In this document: one piece after another, positions 27,702 through 37,267 of the stretch
Numbering within the stretch: position 1 is the first letter of the stretch
Layout of the letters: every line of letters starts with the position of its first letter
Assembly (NCBI GenBank): GCA_020848745.1
Contig: JADLHM010000070.1
Location: forward strand, 1-64,000
Origin: Deltaproteobacteria bacterium
GTDB lineage: Bacteria > Desulfobacterota > Binatia > UTPRO1
Length of the DNA stretch: 64,000 nt
Reading direction: 5' to 3'
Position numbers and translations under genes: made by a program
Notes under the pieces: model-generated
Told to the model about the DNA's origin: nothing
The model's database searches: none
Seen by the model: the letters and a program-made list of their open reading frames with translations, nothing else

Positions 27702-29525
27702 TTACACGTAGCGGTCCCCGATGCACGAGAAGAGCGGGAGATCCCACCGCAGCCCATCCGGCGCGGTCCCGGCCACCCGGATGATGCCGGCGTGGATCCC
27801 GTGCAGGTGGTGCGCCGCGCAGACCGTCGTACGGTTCGACCGCTGGTTCCCGCCGCCGCGTGAGCGGAAGCGGACGTGATGGTCGTGCAGGTTCCGGCGG
27901 CTCGAGCAGCCGGGCACCGTGCAACGCCAGCCGTCGCGCGTGAACACCGGGTCGCGATGCGGCGATTCGGCTTCCCAATCGACGATCACGCGCAGGAGCA
28001 AGCGTTCGAGCGCACGCCAGCGGGGCTCGCCGGCGCTCGCGAAGATCCCGAGCGCATCCCGCATCAGGGCCGTCACCGAGACGGGGCCGGCGAAGCGAAC
28101 CTCGCTCTCCGCGATCTCGATCGTGCCGGTGTCAATTTTTGTCACCGAGCTCGACGCGCTCGGACACGCGCCGATTTGCACGCCGAGCGGGCTTTCGACG
28201 AGCGGCGGCAGGAGTGACGAAAAGGGACCGTCGAGATCGCGGCGATCGAGCACCCAAGCCACCTCGTCTTGCAGGCGGCGCACGGTGACCGCGTTCGCGC
28301 GCGCGAGCCAGGCATCGGCCGTGGTTCGGTCGACGACCGGGAGAAGGGCGAGGGTGCGCGCCCAGGAGAGCCGACCCTCTTCATAGGCGGCCGCGAACGG
28401 CGCGGCACGCCGGACGCCGCGTTCGATCCGCACGAGCGCCCAGACCTTGCGCGTCGAGAGGCCGAGGCGCTCGCGGACATAGGCATCGAGCGACCGGAAT
28501 CCGAGCGCGCGGTAAAGATGGTGATCGACGAGCACTCGGAGAAGCCGGCCGATGCGCGGCTCGACCGTGCGGAGCGTGTGCAGCGCGGCGACGAGACGCG
28601 CGTCGATCTCGTGCGGGTCGGTGGATTCGGCGGGCGGCGCGAGCGACGGCGCCGTATCGGCGAGTGGGAGGTCGTTGGCGGTTGGCTCTGCAACCCTGTC
28701 GAGATCGGCGAGGGATGGATCGATCTCGATATCGACGACGGGCGCAGCGACCGACTGCCGATCACCGCGCCCGGCTCGCCGCTTCACACGAAGGAGGGCG
28801 GCGATCACACGGTCGGCGATCGTCGTCCTCATCGGGCGCGCCGCGATCCCTTCGGCGGCGATCGCTTCCGCTGCCCGCCACGCCGGGAGCGGCGCCCCCG
28901 CCATGCGGCTCGCGAGCTCGCAAGCGTGCCGCCAGAGACGCCGGATGCGACCCGGGCACTCGATCCGCAGCACGGCGACGGGCTCGCCGTCGATGAGATC
29001 GTCGTCGAAGTCCTCGACCGCCGCACTCCGATTCCGCGAGCGGTGCGCGGCCACCGTCGCGCTCAGCACGTCGATCGAGCGCGTGCGCGCGAGGCGCACC
29101 CACGCCGATTCGGTGGCGGCCGTCGCGACGCCAACCAGCAGCCGCAGCTGCGTCCACGAAAGGGTGCCGTCGTGAAACTCCGCCGCGATCCGTGGGCGAT
29201 CCGCCAGCCGCCTGGCGACGAACGCCGCTTCTTCGACTGCGCGGGCGGACAAGCCCAGTCGCTCGCGAGCGTAGTCGGCGAGCCGCGCGAACCCGAGCCG
29301 GCCATAGGAGCGCCGGCCCAGCAACAGGTCCGCGTACATCCCGATCGTCAGCCGCGCGGATGCCTCGGTGCGACATGCCACCCGCAGGCCACGGTCGATG
29401 TCGATCGCGAGGCGCTCGCGCTCCACCACGCGGACCCGCTCGGCTTCGGCGCGCGCGCACGCGACGAGCCGCGGACGGCCCGCCGGCACGCGGGCAAAGG
29501 AGGGTCGGGCGGCGAGGTGCGACAT
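27702..29525 (-). CDS. HNH endonuclease-domain protein with duplicated DUF222-like region
   Basis: The protein has 607 residues. Two similar helical modules are visible: residues 75-155 (GRLGFARLADYARERLGLSA ... GTLSWTQLRLLVGVA) and 340-425 (RALGFRSLDAYVRERLGLST ... GRLSWARTLALLPVV). The C-terminal HNH/treble-clef domain at about 533-580 has CTVPGC, NLHDHHVRFRSRGGG and VCAAHH, giving the Cys4/His arrangement and the catalytic His. DUF222/HNH proteins occur in many mobile or defence-like settings, but their targets are mostly unknown. The start at ATG 29525 fits a good promoter 22-51 bases upstream. It is divergent from the DUF262 gene, with a 235-bp shared control region. Confidence 0.82.
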   Translation of the reverse strand: MSHLAARPSFARVPAGRPRLVACARAEAERVRVVERERLAIDIDRGLRVACRTEASARLTIGMYADLLLGRRSYGRLGFARLADYARERLGLSARAVEEAAFVARRLADRPRIAAEFHDGTLSWTQLRLLVGVATAATESAWVRLARTRSIDVLSATVAAHRSRNRSAAVEDFDDDLIDGEPVAVLRIECPGRIRRLWRHACELASRMAGAPLPAWRAAEAIAAEGIAARPMRTTIADRVIAALLRVKRRAGRGDRQSVAAPVVDIEIDPSLADLDRVAEPTANDLPLADTAPSLAPPAESTDPHEIDARLVAALHTLRTVEPRIGRLLRVLVDHHLYRALGFRSLDAYVRERLGLSTRKVWALVRIERGVRRAAPFAAAYEEGRLSWARTLALLPVVDRTTADAWLARANAVTVRRLQDEVAWVLDRRDLDGPFSSLLPPLVESPLGVQIGACPSASSSVTKIDTGTIEIAESEVRFAGPVSVTALMRDALGIFASAGEPRWRALERLLLRVIVDWEAESPHRDPVFTRDGWRCTVPGCSSRRNLHDHHVRFRSRGGGNQRSNRTTVCAAHHLHGIHAGIIRVAGTAPDGLRWDLPLFSCIGDRYV

Positions 29526-29531
29526 CGGAGA

Positions 29532-29543
29532 CTCTCCGGAGAG
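29532..29543. promoter_or_regulatory. 12-bp perfect palindrome over the HNH gene leader
   Basis: CTCTCCGGAGAG lies between the -10 box and the ATG of the HNH gene and contains its GGAG ribosome-binding sequence. A regulator bound here, or a hairpin in the mRNA, would affect HNH expression. No regulator is assigned. Confidence 0.5.
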
Positions 29544-29546
29544 CGA

Positions 29547-29576
29547 AGAATAGGCGAAACCCAGTACGGTAGTCAA
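29547..29576 (-). promoter_or_regulatory. Sigma-70-type promoter of the HNH gene
   Basis: On the minus strand TTGACT (29576-29571) is followed after 18 bp by TATTCT (29552-29547), and the ATG is 21 bp further. The -35 box overlaps a second inverted repeat, TCAAGA-AAAA-TCTTGA (29573-29588), a candidate operator. Confidence 0.6.
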
Positions 29577-29760
29577 GAAAAATCTTGACGGTCGAGGCAA
29601 GGGCCATCCCGATGGAAAGCGGATTTGCGCCACCCGTCCGGAAGTGGTGACATCGCCCGACAAATCAGAGTTCTTGATCGCGCTCAGGTTCATCTTGCAT
29701 CCCACGATGCCGATCTGAGATCGCGATGCGCACCTGCCCCGCCCGTAGAGGAGTCTCCGA

Positions 29761-31947
29761 TTGGAAACCCAGGTCCGCACGCCCCAAACGGTCTTCATGC
29801 AGCCGCAGCGCCTCGTCGTCCCGCTCTTCCAGCGCCCCTACGTCTGGAACGAAGAGAGTCAGTGGGAACCGCTCTGGGAGGACGTCACTCGCCTTGCCGA
29901 CCGTGTCCTCGCGCGACCGACCGATCGCCATCACCCGCACTTCCTTGGCGCCGTCGTGCTCCAGCAGGTCCCGAAGCAGACGGGGCAGATGCAGGAGCGG
30001 ACGATCATCGACGGCCAGCAACGGCTGACCACGTTGCAACTGTTGCTCGATGCGCTGCATGCCGAGCTACTGGCGGTCGGAGCGCAGGCGCCGGCGATGC
30101 GGATCGAGCCTCTCGTGATGAACGCCGAGCCGTTTTGTGTGAAACCGGAGGATCGGTTCAAGGTCTGGCCGACCAATCGCGACCGCTCGGCCTTCAATGC
30201 CGTCATGGCGGCCTCGCCGCCGATCGACTACGCGGGGCTTGGGCACGTCGGTGAGCGCATGGTGGAAGCGCACCGCTTTTTCCACGCTCGGGCGCACGAG
30301 TGGCTGGGAACGGCAGGGCCGGACGCGGTCGCGACCCGCGCCGCCGCGATCGAGACCGTCGTGCGAGACCTGCTGCAAGTGGTCGTGATCGATCTCGCCG
30401 CGGACGAGAACGCGCAGGAGATCTTCGAGACGCTGAACGCTCGCGGCGCCCAACTGACCGCGGCCGACCTCATCAAGAACTTCATTTTTCAGCGCCTGCT
30501 CGAGCTCGGGACGGACGTCGAGGCGGCGTATCGGAAGCACTGGGCGGAGTTCGAGACCGGGTTCTGGGAGACCGAGATCGCCGTTGGTCGCGTGCGTTAT
30601 CCGCGCTCCTCGATCTTCCTGAATCATTGGCTGGTGGCGCGGACGGCCGAGGAGGTCGTGGCGCGCGAGGTGTTCGACCGGTTCAAACGCTTCGCTGATC
30701 ACGAAGCCGGCGTGCCGATGAGCGGGCTGCTCTCGAGGATTCACGAGGCGTCGCAGGTCTACCGCCGGTTCGTGACGGGGGCGGCCACGCCTACCGGTCC
30801 GATCGACCGCCTCGGGCTATTCGGATACCGCACCGGCGTTCTGGAAAGCGAGGTCATCAAGCCGCTCGTCCTCGGTCTTCTGGATCCCGAAGAGGCGGAG
30901 ATTCCGCACGAGCAGATCAGCAAGGCGCTCGACGTCGTCGAAAGCTGGATGGTGCGCCGCATGTTGGTTCGCGCCACGACCAAAGCGTACAACCAAGTGA
31001 TCGCGGAGCTCGTCGCGCAGGTCCGCAAGGGTGACCGGAGCTGCGCGGGGGACATCATCGAGACGTATCTGCGCGCTCAAGCGAGCGAGAGTCGCTACTG
31101 GCCGGACGACGCCGAGGTCCGCGAGGAGCTCGGCACACTCCAGGCGTACCGGCGGCTGGGTCGCGGCCGCTTGCGGATGGTGCTCGAGGCGATCGAGGAC
31201 TTCCAACGCGGGTGGAGGGACGGCCGGCCGGGATTCGGCGACGAGCGCGTCGCCCGCGGCAAGCTCGTGATCGAGCACGTCATGCCGCGAAAGTGGGTGT
31301 CGCACTGGCCGCTCACCGCCGGGGGAGATACCGAGACTGACCGCGAGCGGCTGCTCCACACGCTGGGGAACCTGACACTGCTGACGGGGAAGCTGAACTC
31401 CAAAGTCTCGAACGGTCCCTGGCTCGGCGCGGGCGGGAAGCGCGAGGCGCTCGAATCGCACGACGTGCTCGTCCTGAACCGCGAGCTCCTCAAGAGGGCA
31501 GCCGAGCAGTGGAGCGAGGTTGCGATCCGCCGCCGCACGGAGGAGCTCACGGAGAGCATCCTCCAGATCTGGCCCGTGCCGCCCGGCCATCGCGCGAACT
31601 TCCAGCGCGATCGCCGCCCCCGCCTCCGAAAGTTCGTGCAACTCGCCGACCTCATCAGCGCCGGCAAGCTCATGCCCGGCATGTCGCTCCATCCGCGCCG
31701 CAAGACGCTCGCCGATCGGGTCGCGATACTGCTCCCCGACGGCCGGATCGAGGTCGACGGTCGCATCTTCACCCGACCATCCGAAGCCGCCGTTGCGATC
31801 ACGGGCCGGCCGACCAAGGGCTGGTACTTCTTCCTGGTGGATCAGGCATCCCGCCGCTCCCTGCAGGACGTCCGCCTCGACTACGTCGAAGCGATGTCGG
31901 TCGACGACGACGATCTCGATGACGAACCGACCGAGGACGACGACTGA
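29761..31947 (+). CDS. DUF262-DUF1524 protein with C-terminal RAMA domain (GmrSD-like defence nuclease)
   Basis: The protein has 728 residues. The N-terminal DUF262 (GmrS-like, ParB-fold NTPase) has LFQRPYVWN (about 22-30) and the signature IDGQQRLTTL (83-92). The DUF1524 His-Me-finger nuclease region has VIEHVMPRKW (about 503-512) and HTLGNLTLLTGKLNSKVSN (about 532-550), with the catalytic His and Asn. The C-terminal RAMA-like domain is at about 655-705 (LLPDGRIEVDGRIFTRPSEA, then ITGRPTKGWYFF), a module found with restriction and methylase enzymes. The tail is acidic. GmrSD-type enzymes cleave modified phage DNA. The start is TTG at 29761, supported by GAGGAG seven bases before it. A RAMA module could provide target reading, which is inference. 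Confidence 0.85.
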   Translation: METQVRTPQTVFMQPQRLVVPLFQRPYVWNEESQWEPLWEDVTRLADRVLARPTDRHHPHFLGAVVLQQVPKQTGQMQERTIIDGQQRLTTLQLLLDALHAELLAVGAQAPAMRIEPLVMNAEPFCVKPEDRFKVWPTNRDRSAFNAVMAASPPIDYAGLGHVGERMVEAHRFFHARAHEWLGTAGPDAVATRAAAIETVVRDLLQVVVIDLAADENAQEIFETLNARGAQLTAADLIKNFIFQRLLELGTDVEAAYRKHWAEFETGFWETEIAVGRVRYPRSSIFLNHWLVARTAEEVVAREVFDRFKRFADHEAGVPMSGLLSRIHEASQVYRRFVTGAATPTGPIDRLGLFGYRTGVLESEVIKPLVLGLLDPEEAEIPHEQISKALDVVESWMVRRMLVRATTKAYNQVIAELVAQVRKGDRSCAGDIIETYLRAQASESRYWPDDAEVREELGTLQAYRRLGRGRLRMVLEAIEDFQRGWRDGRPGFGDERVARGKLVIEHVMPRKWVSHWPLTAGGDTETDRERLLHTLGNLTLLTGKLNSKVSNGPWLGAGGKREALESHDVLVLNRELLKRAAEQWSEVAIRRRTEELTESILQIWPVPPGHRANFQRDRRPRLRKFVQLADLISAGKLMPGMSLHPRRKTLADRVAILLPDGRIEVDGRIFTRPSEAAVAITGRPTKGWYFFLVDQASRRSLQDVRLDYVEAMSVDDDDLDDEPTEDDD

Positions 31948-31998
31948 CGCGCGAGATCGTAGAGCTCTTCCGAGTCCTGGTCTAAACGGAGATTCCCG

Positions 31999-33507
31999 AT
32001 GCCGCTCTTCCTTAGTCGCGCCGCGCTCGCCGCCCTCGTCTTCGGCGTGCTCCTCGCCGTCTATTCCTCGTCGCGCGGGCCGCTGCCGACGTGGGATGCG
32101 TATGCCAACGTGTTCCCGGCGCTCAGCCTCGTGAACGACGGCGACTTCGTGCTCGCGCCCACCGAGATTCCCTTTCTCTTCGACTGGAGCCTGCCGGCGA
32201 GCGGGCGCCGGCTCCAGGTGCCGGTGTGGGATCGCATGGTGATCGACGGGCGGCCGGCGGCCGAGCTCTATCGGGAAGGGAAGCTCCGGCCCGAAGGGTC
32301 GCCGTACTACTTCGTTGTCCGGACGCCGACCGGCGAGTATGTGGGGAGCGAGCCGCCGGGGACGGCGGTCGTGGCGGCGCCGTTCTACGCGGCGCTGGCG
32401 CTGCCGGACGTCGCCCGGAGCCTCCGCGACGTCCGGCCGCTCGTCGAGAAGAACGGGCTCGTGGCGGCCGTGCTGACCGCTGCGACCGCGGCGATCCTCT
32501 TCCTCACGGCGGCGCGCTTCCTCGACACCGGGCGCGCGCTGCTCGTCGCGGCGATCTTCGGGCTCGGGTCGTGTGCCTGGTCGCTCGGCAGCCAGGCGCT
32601 CTGGGCGCAGGCGGGAATGCAGCCGTTCCTCGCGCTCGGCATCGACCAGTTCCTGCGCATCCGCGACCGTCGCGGCCATGCGCTCGTCGCGGGGCTCGCG
32701 CTCGGCGCCGCGGTCGCGTGCCGTTCGACGAGCCTCGTCGTGCTGGCGGCGCTCGGCCTCCATCTCCTCGCGACCGACCGCAAGTCCTTGGTGCTCGTCG
32801 TCGCGGGCGCGCTCGCGCCGCTCGCGGGCCTCGCGGCCTACAACCTCCGCTACTTCGGCTCGCCCCTCGTCGAAGCGCACGCGCTCATGGGACCGGCGGT
32901 CGCGCTCCGCAAGACGGGTGTCGCCGACCTCTGGCAGACGCCGCTCTGGGAAGGCGCGCTCGGCCTCCTCGCGAGCCCGGGCCGCGGGCTACTCGTCTAC
33001 TCGCCGGTGCTCGTCCTCGCGTTCGTCGGCGCGTGGCGCGTCGTGCGCGGGCGGGCGGACCGCGCGTTCTTGCCGATCGTCGCGGCGGCCGCCGCGATCA
33101 TGGTGGTGCGGTTCAAGTGGTTCGATTGGTGGGGTGGGTACAGCTACGGCTACCGGCCGCTCATGGACGCGATCGTGCCGTTCGCCGTGTTGTTGATCCC
33201 GGCGCTCGCCGCCGCCCGGCCGACGGCGCTCCGCCGCGCCGCCGTCGCCGCGGCCCTCGCGTGGTCGGTCTTCGTGCAATGGGTGGGGACCGCGTACGAC
33301 AGCGACAGCTGGGACCGTCACGGTGGATTCGACCGCCGCGTCACCCGCAGCATCGACGAGCCGCGCTGGCGCGAGCGGCTGTGGTCGATCGGTGAGAATC
33401 CGATCGTGTTCTACTGGCGCCACCGCGCCGAGGCGGTCGCGCGCCGCGAGGCGAGCCTCGCGGAGTTCGCGCGGACGCCGTTCGAGGTGCGGCGCCCGAC
33501 GCCGTGA
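31999..33507 (+). CDS. Polytopic membrane protein, glycosyltransferase GT-C-like, unknown
   Basis: This 502-residue protein has about 9-10 membrane segments. After the first helix comes GPLPTWDAYANVFPALSLV, with an Asp (D-A-Y) in the first outside loop as in GT-C enzymes. A later loop has FKWFDWWGGYSYGYRPLMDA, and a cytosolic or periplasmic tail is rich in Arg. No family is certain; an oligosaccharyl- or polyprenyl-sugar transferase function is inferred from topology only. GGAG precedes the ATG by about 8 bases. It begins 51 bp after the DUF262 gene, on the same strand. Confidence 0.65.
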   Translation: MPLFLSRAALAALVFGVLLAVYSSSRGPLPTWDAYANVFPALSLVNDGDFVLAPTEIPFLFDWSLPASGRRLQVPVWDRMVIDGRPAAELYREGKLRPEGSPYYFVVRTPTGEYVGSEPPGTAVVAAPFYAALALPDVARSLRDVRPLVEKNGLVAAVLTAATAAILFLTAARFLDTGRALLVAAIFGLGSCAWSLGSQALWAQAGMQPFLALGIDQFLRIRDRRGHALVAGLALGAAVACRSTSLVVLAALGLHLLATDRKSLVLVVAGALAPLAGLAAYNLRYFGSPLVEAHALMGPAVALRKTGVADLWQTPLWEGALGLLASPGRGLLVYSPVLVLAFVGAWRVVRGRADRAFLPIVAAAAAIMVVRFKWFDWWGGYSYGYRPLMDAIVPFAVLLIPALAAARPTALRRAAVAAALAWSVFVQWVGTAYDSDSWDRHGGFDRRVTRSIDEPRWRERLWSIGENPIVFYWRHRAEAVARREASLAEFARTPFEVRRPTP

Positions 33508-33620: not shown

Positions 33621-34211
33621 TCAGCCGAGGATCTCGGCGACCCGGAAGAAGACGCGCGGAAACGCGACCATGGCGATGCGCCGGCCGCGGACCAGCCGCT
33701 GGTGCTCGCGGTACCCGCTTGCCGAGGGGCGCCGGTACACTTCGAGCGCCTTCCCGGGGATGTCGATCAGCCAGAGCTCGCGCACGTGCTTGCGGGCGTA
33801 GAGATTCGACTTGATGCGACGGTCGTAGGAGACGCTCGAGTCCGCGACCTCGATCGCGAGCAGCACGTCGGATGGGCGGGCGTAGACGGTGCTGTAGAAA
33901 TCGGCCCGCACTGCGAGGAGTGTCAGATCGGGCTGCGGCTCGGAGTAGTCGTCGAGGACGACGGGATTCTGCACGCTGACGACGACCCGCGCCCCGAGCC
34001 GCCGCGAAAAGAGCGCGTTCAGACGGTTGACGCCGCCGATATGTCGCATGCCGATCGGGCACATGTGGAGGACGTCACCCTCGATGAGCTCGACGCGGGA
34101 ATCCTCGTCGAAGATTCCCGCGTCGCCCATGCGGTGGTACTCGTCGATCGTGAAGCGGTGCCGGACCGGCATCGTATCGTCGACGGCTTCGTGAGCAACG
34201 GCGCGTGCCAT
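33621..34211 (-). CDS. Uma2 family (DUF820) putative restriction-like endonuclease
   Basis: This 196-residue protein has the length and fold pattern of Uma2 PD-(D/E)xK proteins. It begins with a helix-strand FTIDEYHRMGDAGIFDEDSR, then VELIEGDVLHM. The core motif is EPQPDLTLLAV ... VLLAIEVADSS ... RRIKSNLYAR, giving the Asp, Glu-x-(Ala) and Lys of the active site, and it ends with LWLIDIPGKALEVYR. The biological target of the family is unknown. The start at ATG 34211 has AGGA about 8 bases upstream. An in-frame ATG at 34229 is possible. It stands alone. Confidence 0.85.
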   Translation of the reverse strand: MARAVAHEAVDDTMPVRHRFTIDEYHRMGDAGIFDEDSRVELIEGDVLHMCPIGMRHIGGVNRLNALFSRRLGARVVVSVQNPVVLDDYSEPQPDLTLLAVRADFYSTVYARPSDVLLAIEVADSSVSYDRRIKSNLYARKHVRELWLIDIPGKALEVYRRPSASGYREHQRLVRGRRIAMVAFPRVFFRVAEILG

Positions 34212-34373
34212 TGCCGAGTTCCTAACCATACTGGTTCGCCTTTCGAGAACACATTTCGTGGTGACCGGCGCCGTTGAGATCATGCGCTAGGCGTGCGAGC
34301 GGCGCATCGCTCCGAGTAGCGGGTCGTCGCTTGACCGTTCCGCTGCGCGCGCGCTACGCCGTCGCGCGTGCGG

Positions 34374-36209: not shown

Positions 36210-36560
36210 GGGTGAATCGCGTTAGGTAGCCCGGAGCATGGGCGTGGGCAAGCCGCGTGCGCCACCGCGCGCGCGACCCGCGCGACCGCGCGCGCGACCC
36301 GCGCGACCGCGCGCGCCACCGGGCGGTGGGTCGCTTTGCGGCTCCCGGTTCCTGGAGCCCCGCACTCAGGGCCCGCCGGTGGCTCCATGTTGCGGGGTCA
36401 GCGGGTCCGCTCTTTCCTCTTGGGCGCTGGGGTGTCGAGATCCGAGCTCGCCGCGTCCCTGGCTCCCCGGCCAATGGTAGAGAGCTCGATCCACGTTCAT
36501 CGACGGCTGCCAGGACTTCGACCTCATCGGGAAGTGAGGGATCTTGTGTTTGAGGCCATC
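36210..36560. other. Intergenic region upstream of ychF and the PIN module
   Basis: This 351-base gap contains the 21-bp tandem repeat at 36265-36316 and then about 240 bases in which I see no gene, RNA fold or terminator. It should carry the ychF promoter (minus strand) and that of the antitoxin gene (plus strand). Confidence 0.5.
36265..36316. repeat. 21-bp GC tandem repeat, about 2.5 copies
   Basis: The unit starting CCGCGCGCGCGACCCGCGCG is present at 36265-36285 and 36286-36306 exactly, followed by a partial copy to about 36316. It lies upstream of ychF and codes for nothing convincing. Confidence 0.85.
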
Positions 36561-36581
36561 ATGGACTCATAATCAGTCCAT
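36561..36581. promoter_or_regulatory. Palindromic operator overlapping the antitoxin start
   Basis: ATGGACT (36561-36567) and AGTCCAT (36575-36581) are perfect inverted arms around a 7-base AT-rich centre. The right arm includes the first two bases of the antitoxin ATG (36580). Phd/YefM antitoxins repress their own operons at such dyads, so this is a likely autoregulatory site. Confidence 0.6.
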
Positions 36582-36870
36582 GAAGGACATAAAAGTCAGC
36601 GAGCTCAAGGCGAACCTCAGCAAGTACCTACGGATGGCGTCCCGCGGCTCGTCCATCGTCGTCAGGGATCGCGACGAGCCGATCGCTCAGATCGGTCCAC
36701 CGCAGGAGGCCGCGGTCTCCTGGTCGGAACGGATGGCGCGCCAGGGGCGCCTCCGCGTTGGGACGCAGAACTGGAGCCAGTTGAAGATCGCGAAGCTCGA
36801 TCGGTCGGTCGACATCCAGGCGTCGCTACGCGCGGTGCGCGAGGATCCGAGTGAAGTACGTCGACGCTAG
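36580..36870 (+). CDS. Phd/YefM-type antitoxin
   Basis: The 96-residue protein starts with KDIKVSELKANLSKYLRMA, the N-terminal DNA-binding/dimerisation fold of Phd/YefM antitoxins, followed by the strand GSSIVVRDRDEPIAQIGP. The C-terminal half (from about 45) is expected to wrap around the toxin. It overlaps the downstream PIN toxin by 20 nt, the usual antitoxin-first arrangement with translational coupling. A palindrome sits over its start codon. Confidence 0.88.
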   Translation: MKDIKVSELKANLSKYLRMASRGSSIVVRDRDEPIAQIGPPQEAAVSWSERMARQGRLRVGTQNWSQLKIAKLDRSVDIQASLRAVREDPSEVRRR

Positions 36871-37267
36871 CGCGGTGCTGCGGGTGATCTTCGCCGAGGC
36901 GGGGACGACGGTCCCGCTGCGGGACGGCGACCGCATCGTGTCCTCGCAGCTCGTGGAGATCGAAACAGTCCGCGCCGTCGACCGCGAGCGCCTGCTCGGG
37001 GCCCTCGACGATGCGCAGACGGCGATCAAGCGCAAGGAGCTGGGGGATTTTCTCGCGATGCTCGATCTCCTCCCGATCGACGGTGCGGTCGTCGATCGAG
37101 CGAAGAGCTCGTTCGCGGTGAACGTGCGGGCGCTCGATGCCATGCATGTCGCGAGCGCGGAGATCCTCGCGGCGGAAGCGCGGGGCGAGGCGCTGGAGTT
37201 CTGGACGCACGACGACCGCCAGGCGGTAGCGGCGACGTCGCGTGGGCTCGCGGTCTTCGGAACGTGA
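36851..37267 (+). CDS. PIN-domain toxin (VapC-like)
   Basis: This 138-residue protein has the PIN active-site acids: Asp5 in KYVDASAVL, Glu36/38 in QLVEIETVR, Asp96 in RALDAMHVASA and Asp121/122 in THDDRQAV. VapC-type toxins are Mg-dependent ribonucleases that cut tRNA or rRNA, held inactive by the antitoxin made from the overlapping gene. The start is GTG at 36851. It is the second gene of a two-gene module. Confidence 0.88.
   Translation: MKYVDASAVLRVIFAEAGTTVPLRDGDRIVSSQLVEIETVRAVDRERLLGALDDAQTAIKRKELGDFLAMLDLLPIDGAVVDRAKSSFAVNVRALDAMHVASAEILAAEARGEALEFWTHDDRQAVAATSRGLAVFGT

Follow-up and report, generated by a model that had tools for sequence, protein, structure and literature searches.

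The locus described here encodes a nuclease of the GmrSD kind that carries a RAMA domain at its C-terminus, and it raises the question of what such a domain contributes to a restriction enzyme. RAMA has been predicted to be a sensor of 6mA and an earlier pull-down suggested 6mA binding, as told in the available text of PMC9963953, while its fusion to restriction domains is recurrent, according to the accessible part of PMC11037411. We examined the gene within a 64,000-nt stretch of a Deltaproteobacteria bacterium genome (contig JADLHM010000070.1, positions 1 to 64,000; referred to as the window), together with its relatives, its predicted structure and the genomes that host it.

A GmrSD-type nuclease with a C-terminal RAMA domain

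Reading and translation of the ORF yielded a protein of 728 aa, with the following features:

29749..29753, plus strand: ribosome-binding-like AGGAG, read from the sequence, 7 nt upstream of the TTG
29761..31947, plus strand: GmrSD-RAMA ORF, 728 aa, TTG start; recognized by its Pfam domains, with a start position conserved in relatives
29800..30489, plus strand: DUF262/GmrSD_N domain (ParB/Srx-like NTPase), residues 14-243; PF03235, E = 9.7e-35; fold matches DndI, SspE and BrxU
30010..30024, plus strand: DGQQR nucleotide-handling motif, residues 84-88; identical in 39/39 RAMA-bearing full-length rows
31099..31554, plus strand: DUF1524/GmrSD_C HNH nuclease domain, residues 447-598; PF07510, E = 1.2e-24
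31273..31287, plus strand: EHVMP nuclease motif, residues 505-509; E505, H506 and P509 identical in 39/39 rows
31618..31893, plus strand: RAMA domain, residues 620-711; PF18755 above cut-off; model match to CcrM (6pbd) and MPND (7ydw)
31819..31824, plus strand: invariant G687-W688, equivalent of CcrM G331-W332; 39/39 rows, profile alignment to 6pbd
31894..31944, plus strand: acidic tail at the C-terminus (residues 712-728), predicted to be disordered for the most part; net charge -11

The original prediction had placed DUF262, DUF1524 and RAMA in one polypeptide behind a TTG start, and both points held: all three Pfam models match, the sequence contains the described motifs IDGQQRLTTL, VIEHVMPRKW and LGNLTLL as well as the GWYFF stretch, and at the position aligned with the TTG the relatives have M, V or L, with ATG, GTG or TTG as start codons. 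The RAMA module had been assigned to residues 650-705; the HMM search returned a significant match there (47.9 bits against a Pfam curated cut-off of 35.2; E = 1.5e-12), with the domain turning out to be longer, at residues 620-711. Within it, DUF4357 gave a sub-threshold Pfam match over residues 669-688. In the nuclease domain, E505, H506, P509, N537, N546 and N551 are identical in 39/39 RAMA-bearing full-length rows, a count that omits L030, L035, L036, L045 and L048, whose N-terminal part is unreadable in frame, and L040, which is broken there. The best PADLOC model for the protein was Orf5 (3e-93, residues 15-604), followed by type IV and SspE models, and PDC-S14 matched the RAMA part. A profile search of the host genome found RAMA in this gene only. 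The protein is therefore a nuclease of GmrSD type to which a further DNA-binding domain has been added, a kind that is already known, and modification-dependent restriction is, judged by family, the most likely class of function.

Distribution and phylogeny of the family

Relatives were sought with residues 489-728 as the query among genomes chosen one per species. At least 48 relative loci were found; of the 48 matches listed, 41 carry RAMA and seven lack it (L067, L068, L071, L072, L073, L075 and L076); three IMG/VR records (L077-L079) also carry a RAMA-bearing gene, L079 being near-identical to L078. According to the record titles, carriers among the matches listed include Nitrospira, Bradyrhizobium, Gammaproteobacteria, Planctomycetota, Acidobacteriota and Actinomycetota, and a Nitrospira homologue is 73% identical to the window protein (L029). 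Members come from five or more named phyla, so that the family could be tested in hosts already in culture. Within the phylum to which the window belongs, RAMA is uncommon, being matched in 12 of 297 genomes, eight of them above the cut-off. Ten of 58 genomes near the host gave some match to the window protein, the best of which, the window's own copy aside, was only 39% identical over residues 16-626 and ended short of RAMA (L017).

Our alignment (A2) comprised 38 of the 45 RAMA-bearing rows, with L079, which nearly duplicates L078, omitted from both alignment and tree. Each of the 38 has all three Pfam domains at E <= 0.01; DUF4357 is also matched by 20 of them and DNA_binding_1 by four. In a tree of the core, from which the RAMA columns had been removed, the 38 RAMA rows formed a single branch (SH-aLRT 100) against 14 rows labelled RAMA-less, several of which lie on long branches. 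One of those 14, a more distant GmrSD protein encoded on a Bartonella plasmid (L097), has a DUF4357/RAMA-like C-terminus of its own at about residues 610-690. Since this C-terminus lies outside the main branch, GmrSD and RAMA-like domains have, by sequence comparison, probably been joined more than once.

In four actinobacterial members (L056, L059, L063 and L064) the fourth domain, DNA_binding_1 of the alkylguanine-transferase type, lies C-terminal to RAMA. The usual active-site motif of that domain type is PCHR, which seems to be replaced in these four, and their DNA_binding_1 domain may be a non-catalytic lesion binder.

The predicted core resembles phosphorothioate-associated enzymes

An AlphaFold model of the window protein, built with A2 as its alignment, had a mean pLDDT of 88.2 and a pTM of 0.73, with a folded C-terminal domain and with residues 714-728 disordered (pLDDT < 50). 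When the predicted core was compared with the PDB, the closest matches were DndI (9jfl; Z 23.9, 538 residues aligned, rmsd 6.8) and SspE (7drs; Z 22.2, rmsd 20), followed by BrxU (Z 14.7, rmsd 19.7). These large rmsd values suggest that the domains are placed differently from those of the solved relatives.

That the two top fold matches are DndI and SspE favors an enzyme which, as they do, would sense phosphorothioate. This possibility is nonetheless very remote, in view of both the hosts and the protein itself. DUF4007 (PF13182), which we take to be SspB, was present in 1 of 41 host genomes and absent from the window's, and DndE was found in none of the 41 in a search that lacked a positive control. 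Moreover, the sensor tyrosine of the PxYQR stretch (SspE Y30, DndI Y25) is replaced by F23 in the window protein, the aligned position being F in 37 of 39 rows and Y in two.

RAMA as a backbone clamp or as a reader of modified bases

We found two RAMA structures, those of CcrM and MPND, both of which belong to proteins with other jobs. The modelled RAMA domain (residues 621-712) superimposes closely on each of them (CcrM 6pbd: Z 13.8, rmsd 1.8 over 88 residues; MPND 7ydw: Z 12.2, rmsd 1.6 over 83); at the sequence level, a profile of 30 RAMA domains retrieved CcrM at 5e-6 and MPND less strongly, at 0.012. In the accessible text of the two reports, the RAMA domain of CcrM contacts DNA phosphates and makes no base contacts (PMC6787082), and that of MPND binds double-stranded DNA through backbone contacts of S113, S115 and W135, again with no base contacts, its binding being indifferent to 6mA and to sequence (PMC9963953). 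The equivalents of these backbone contacts are kept in the family: W688 aligns with CcrM W332 and is W in 39/39 rows, and S674 aligns with MPND S115 (and CcrM H317) and is S in 35/39 rows. Because the solved domains contact phosphates and the contact residues are retained, we favor RAMA as a clamp that would grip the backbone of double-stranded DNA largely irrespective of sequence. Counting against this, the window protein departs from the family at or near DNA contacts, with R672 at the position of MPND S113 (S or T in 35/39 rows) and K686 at that of CcrM N330 (N in 34/39 rows).

The main alternative is that RAMA reads modified bases, 6mA or another mark, and thereby triggers cleavage of foreign modified DNA. 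Such a role would agree with the prediction of RAMA as a 6mA sensor and the one supporting pull-down (PMC9963953, available text), with the recurrence of RAMA-restriction fusions (PMC11037411, available text) and with the DNA_binding_1 domain added in 4/38 members, as if readers were being added. It is difficult to reconcile with the missing base contacts in CcrM and MPND and the lack of a 6mA effect in MPND (PMC6787082 and PMC9963953, available text), and the methylases of the hosts weigh against it as well. In a survey of 41 host genomes, which did not include that of L060, the N6-adenine methylase domain PF02384 was matched in 34 (29 at E < 1e-40) and the C5 methylase domain PF00145 in 16. 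The window's host has an HsdM-HsdS type I pair and a second HsdM-like gene, with no C5 methylase and no PF01555 match in a profile search of its genome, and L077-L079 have BREX genes and PglX-type methylases near the GmrSD-RAMA gene. With N6-adenine methylase domains in 34 of these hosts and C5 methylases in 16, 6mA or 5mC as such, irrespective of context, is an unlikely trigger; we infer that many hosts would have difficulty carrying a nuclease that responds to every 6mA or every 5mC if these methylases are active. On the other side, the presence of a methylase gene does not prove that the DNA is methylated, and a mark in a specific sequence might be readable all the same. Either RAMA or the DUF262 part may recognize a sequence-dependent or hypermodified-base mark. 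Taken by analogy with the two solved domains, the reader role is unproven and appears less likely than that of a backbone clamp, and we regard it as possible though rather doubtful. The original prediction of a modification-dependent nuclease is thus supported by family and by the intact DUF262/DUF1524 motifs, and its suggestion that RAMA supplies the recognition of modified bases is weakened by the phosphate contacts of CcrM and MPND and by the methylases of the hosts.

The same survey bears on a reversed role for 6mA, in which host adenine methylation would be a self mark that releases or restrains the enzyme, sensed by RAMA or DUF262. DndI offers a precedent, as there the phosphorothioate mark suppresses self-cleavage, and the N6 methylase domain in 34/41 hosts, the type I methylase-like neighbors seen by eye at 3 of 45 loci and the BREX genes beside the gene in the viral records all point the same way. 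However, N6 methylase domains are nearly universal, being found in 13 of 14 control genomes (PF00145 in 10 of 14), so that there is no enrichment; seven of the 41 hosts have no PF02384 match, and there is no fixed methylase partner. We therefore consider a self mark of this kind improbable.

An acidic tail marks the clade of the window protein

Immediately after the RAMA domain, whose net charge is +6, come the 17 residues with a net charge of -11 (residues 712-728). At least eight D/E within the last 16 residues were found in 15 of 17 rows of the window's clade; of the two exceptions, L041 has seven and L077 has five, its acidic run lying further in. None of the 21 rows of the other, actinobacterial clade reaches eight in 16, the tail there being short or absent, and the acidic tail is therefore not essential for the family as a whole. 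Among neighboring ORFs of at least 150 aa, 0/288 reached eight D/E, although many of these are mechanical calls that need not be real genes. In MPND, an acidic stretch directly after RAMA markedly inhibits DNA binding (PMC9963953, available text). Because the window's clade has an acidic tail in the same place, we propose that it is inhibitory here as well. This tail is the most useful new lead from our analysis, as its conservation points to a simple way, open to experiment, in which a nuclease acting alone might be kept off host DNA.

A model for the enzyme

Combining these observations, we propose a stand-alone, NTP-gated HNH restriction nuclease of the GmrSD kind, in which RAMA serves as a double-stranded DNA clamp that is restrained by the tail in the window's clade, a proposal whose chances of being correct we put at about even. 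Discrimination would be left to the DUF262 NTPase domain rather than to RAMA, the targets most likely being hypermodified phage bases, as for GmrSD and BrxU, and the NTP cycle of DUF262 would free the HNH domain for cutting. In the window's clade, the disordered acidic tail beside RAMA would compete with DNA and so keep the resting enzyme off the host's own. Should the clamp model hold, RAMA in a restriction protein need not mean adenine-methylation sensing, which would change both the annotation of RAMA fusions and the choice of phage targets.

A bolder extension, which we consider unlikely, is that the tail acts like a safety catch, a DNA mimic that covers a sequence-blind clamp and gives way only once the NTPase encounters foreign DNA (or is no longer in contact with host adenine marks), making of one protein a self/non-self switch. 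By analogy with animal MPND, which likewise combines RAMA with an inhibitory acidic stretch, the combination would then have originated independently here.

The gene occupies a variable segment

Comparison with a same-genus genome (L099, G297) placed the gene in a segment that is not shared between the two:

27737..32014, no strand assigned: variable segment, in place of which the same-genus genome has about 1.8 kb of other DNA

The flanks of this segment are 88.8% and 86.9% identical between the genomes. It holds the GmrSD-RAMA gene and an HNH-like ORF, and its replacement holds a patatin-like ORF. Since the same-genus genome has other DNA there, the location of the gene is variable, which is what one would expect for a defense gene. 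The HNH-like ORF (27702-29798, minus strand) is long, runs divergently from the GmrSD-RAMA gene and ends in an HNH-like region, with a weak match to the Pfam HNH model (E = 0.2).

Farther along the window are a Uma2-type putative restriction endonuclease (33621-34283, minus strand; PF05685, 3e-24; PADLOC PDC-S03) and, at 36544-37267 on the plus strand, a Phd/YefM-type antitoxin gene (below cut-off) followed by a PIN-domain gene (PF01850, 8.4e-9), which from their sequences are likely a toxin-antitoxin pair. The remaining neighbors are mostly housekeeping-like. A surrounding defense island was considered and rejected, as the ten flanking ORFs scanned gave only the Uma2 protein and a weak Cas3-like match to an HDOD gene, and no BREX genes. 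Integration at a tRNA is ruled against by the absence of any tRNA from the window. Carriage by phages or plasmids was likewise rejected: the RAMA region had no match among 50,697 phage records, and plasmids gave 13 weak DUF4357-type matches. Nor did a fixed partner gene emerge from an all-against-all comparison of 404 crudely called ORFs, in which the commonest neighbor group occurred at 5 of 45 loci; by eye, the recurrent groups resemble type I restriction and other DUF262 genes.

The setting is different in the three IMG/VR records. In L078 the gene adjoins divergent brxA, brxB and brxC, and two PglX genes lie farther off in that record; L077 and L079 have the same neighbors and the same methylase matches. 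These records are classed as viral and represent putative viruses, which could be host islands.

Comparison with known systems

A literature search found no paper describing a DUF262-DUF1524-RAMA protein by that name and no experiment on any family member, as far as the accessible text of the sources goes. The 2015 GmrSD survey (PMC4619093) lists DUF4357 and DNA_binding_1 as extra GmrSD domains; the name RAMA does not occur in its available text, and its DUF4357 proteins presumably correspond to the present family. Such proteins may already be under study elsewhere, since an author note in the accessible part of a review (PMC12707154) refers to work on fusions of RAMA to HNH endonucleases.

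The window protein has DUF262, DUF1524, DGQQR and EHxxP in common with the type IV enzymes GmrSD and Eco94GmrSD, the latter likewise a single chain; it differs from them by the added RAMA domain and acidic tail, and its substrate is only predicted. BrxU (7p9k, 7p9m) has the same DUF262-DUF1524 arrangement; it is a GmrSD homologue whose gene lies in a BREX island, flanked by brxC and pglX, and it cuts 5mC, 5hmC and glucosylated 5hmC DNA (PMC8565348, available text). The relatives L077-L079 adjoin BREX genes as BrxU does, unlike the window copy, and the accessible text reports no RAMA domain in BrxU. DndI and SspE, the closest solved folds of the core, work with phosphorothioate genes that as a rule were not found in the hosts here, and have tyrosine where the window protein has phenylalanine. 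Finally, the C-terminal domain of CcrM and the RAMA domain of MPND share with the window protein the RAMA fold and its GW motif and differ in what these are joined to: a methyltransferase in CcrM, an MPN peptidase domain in MPND and a nuclease in the window protein.
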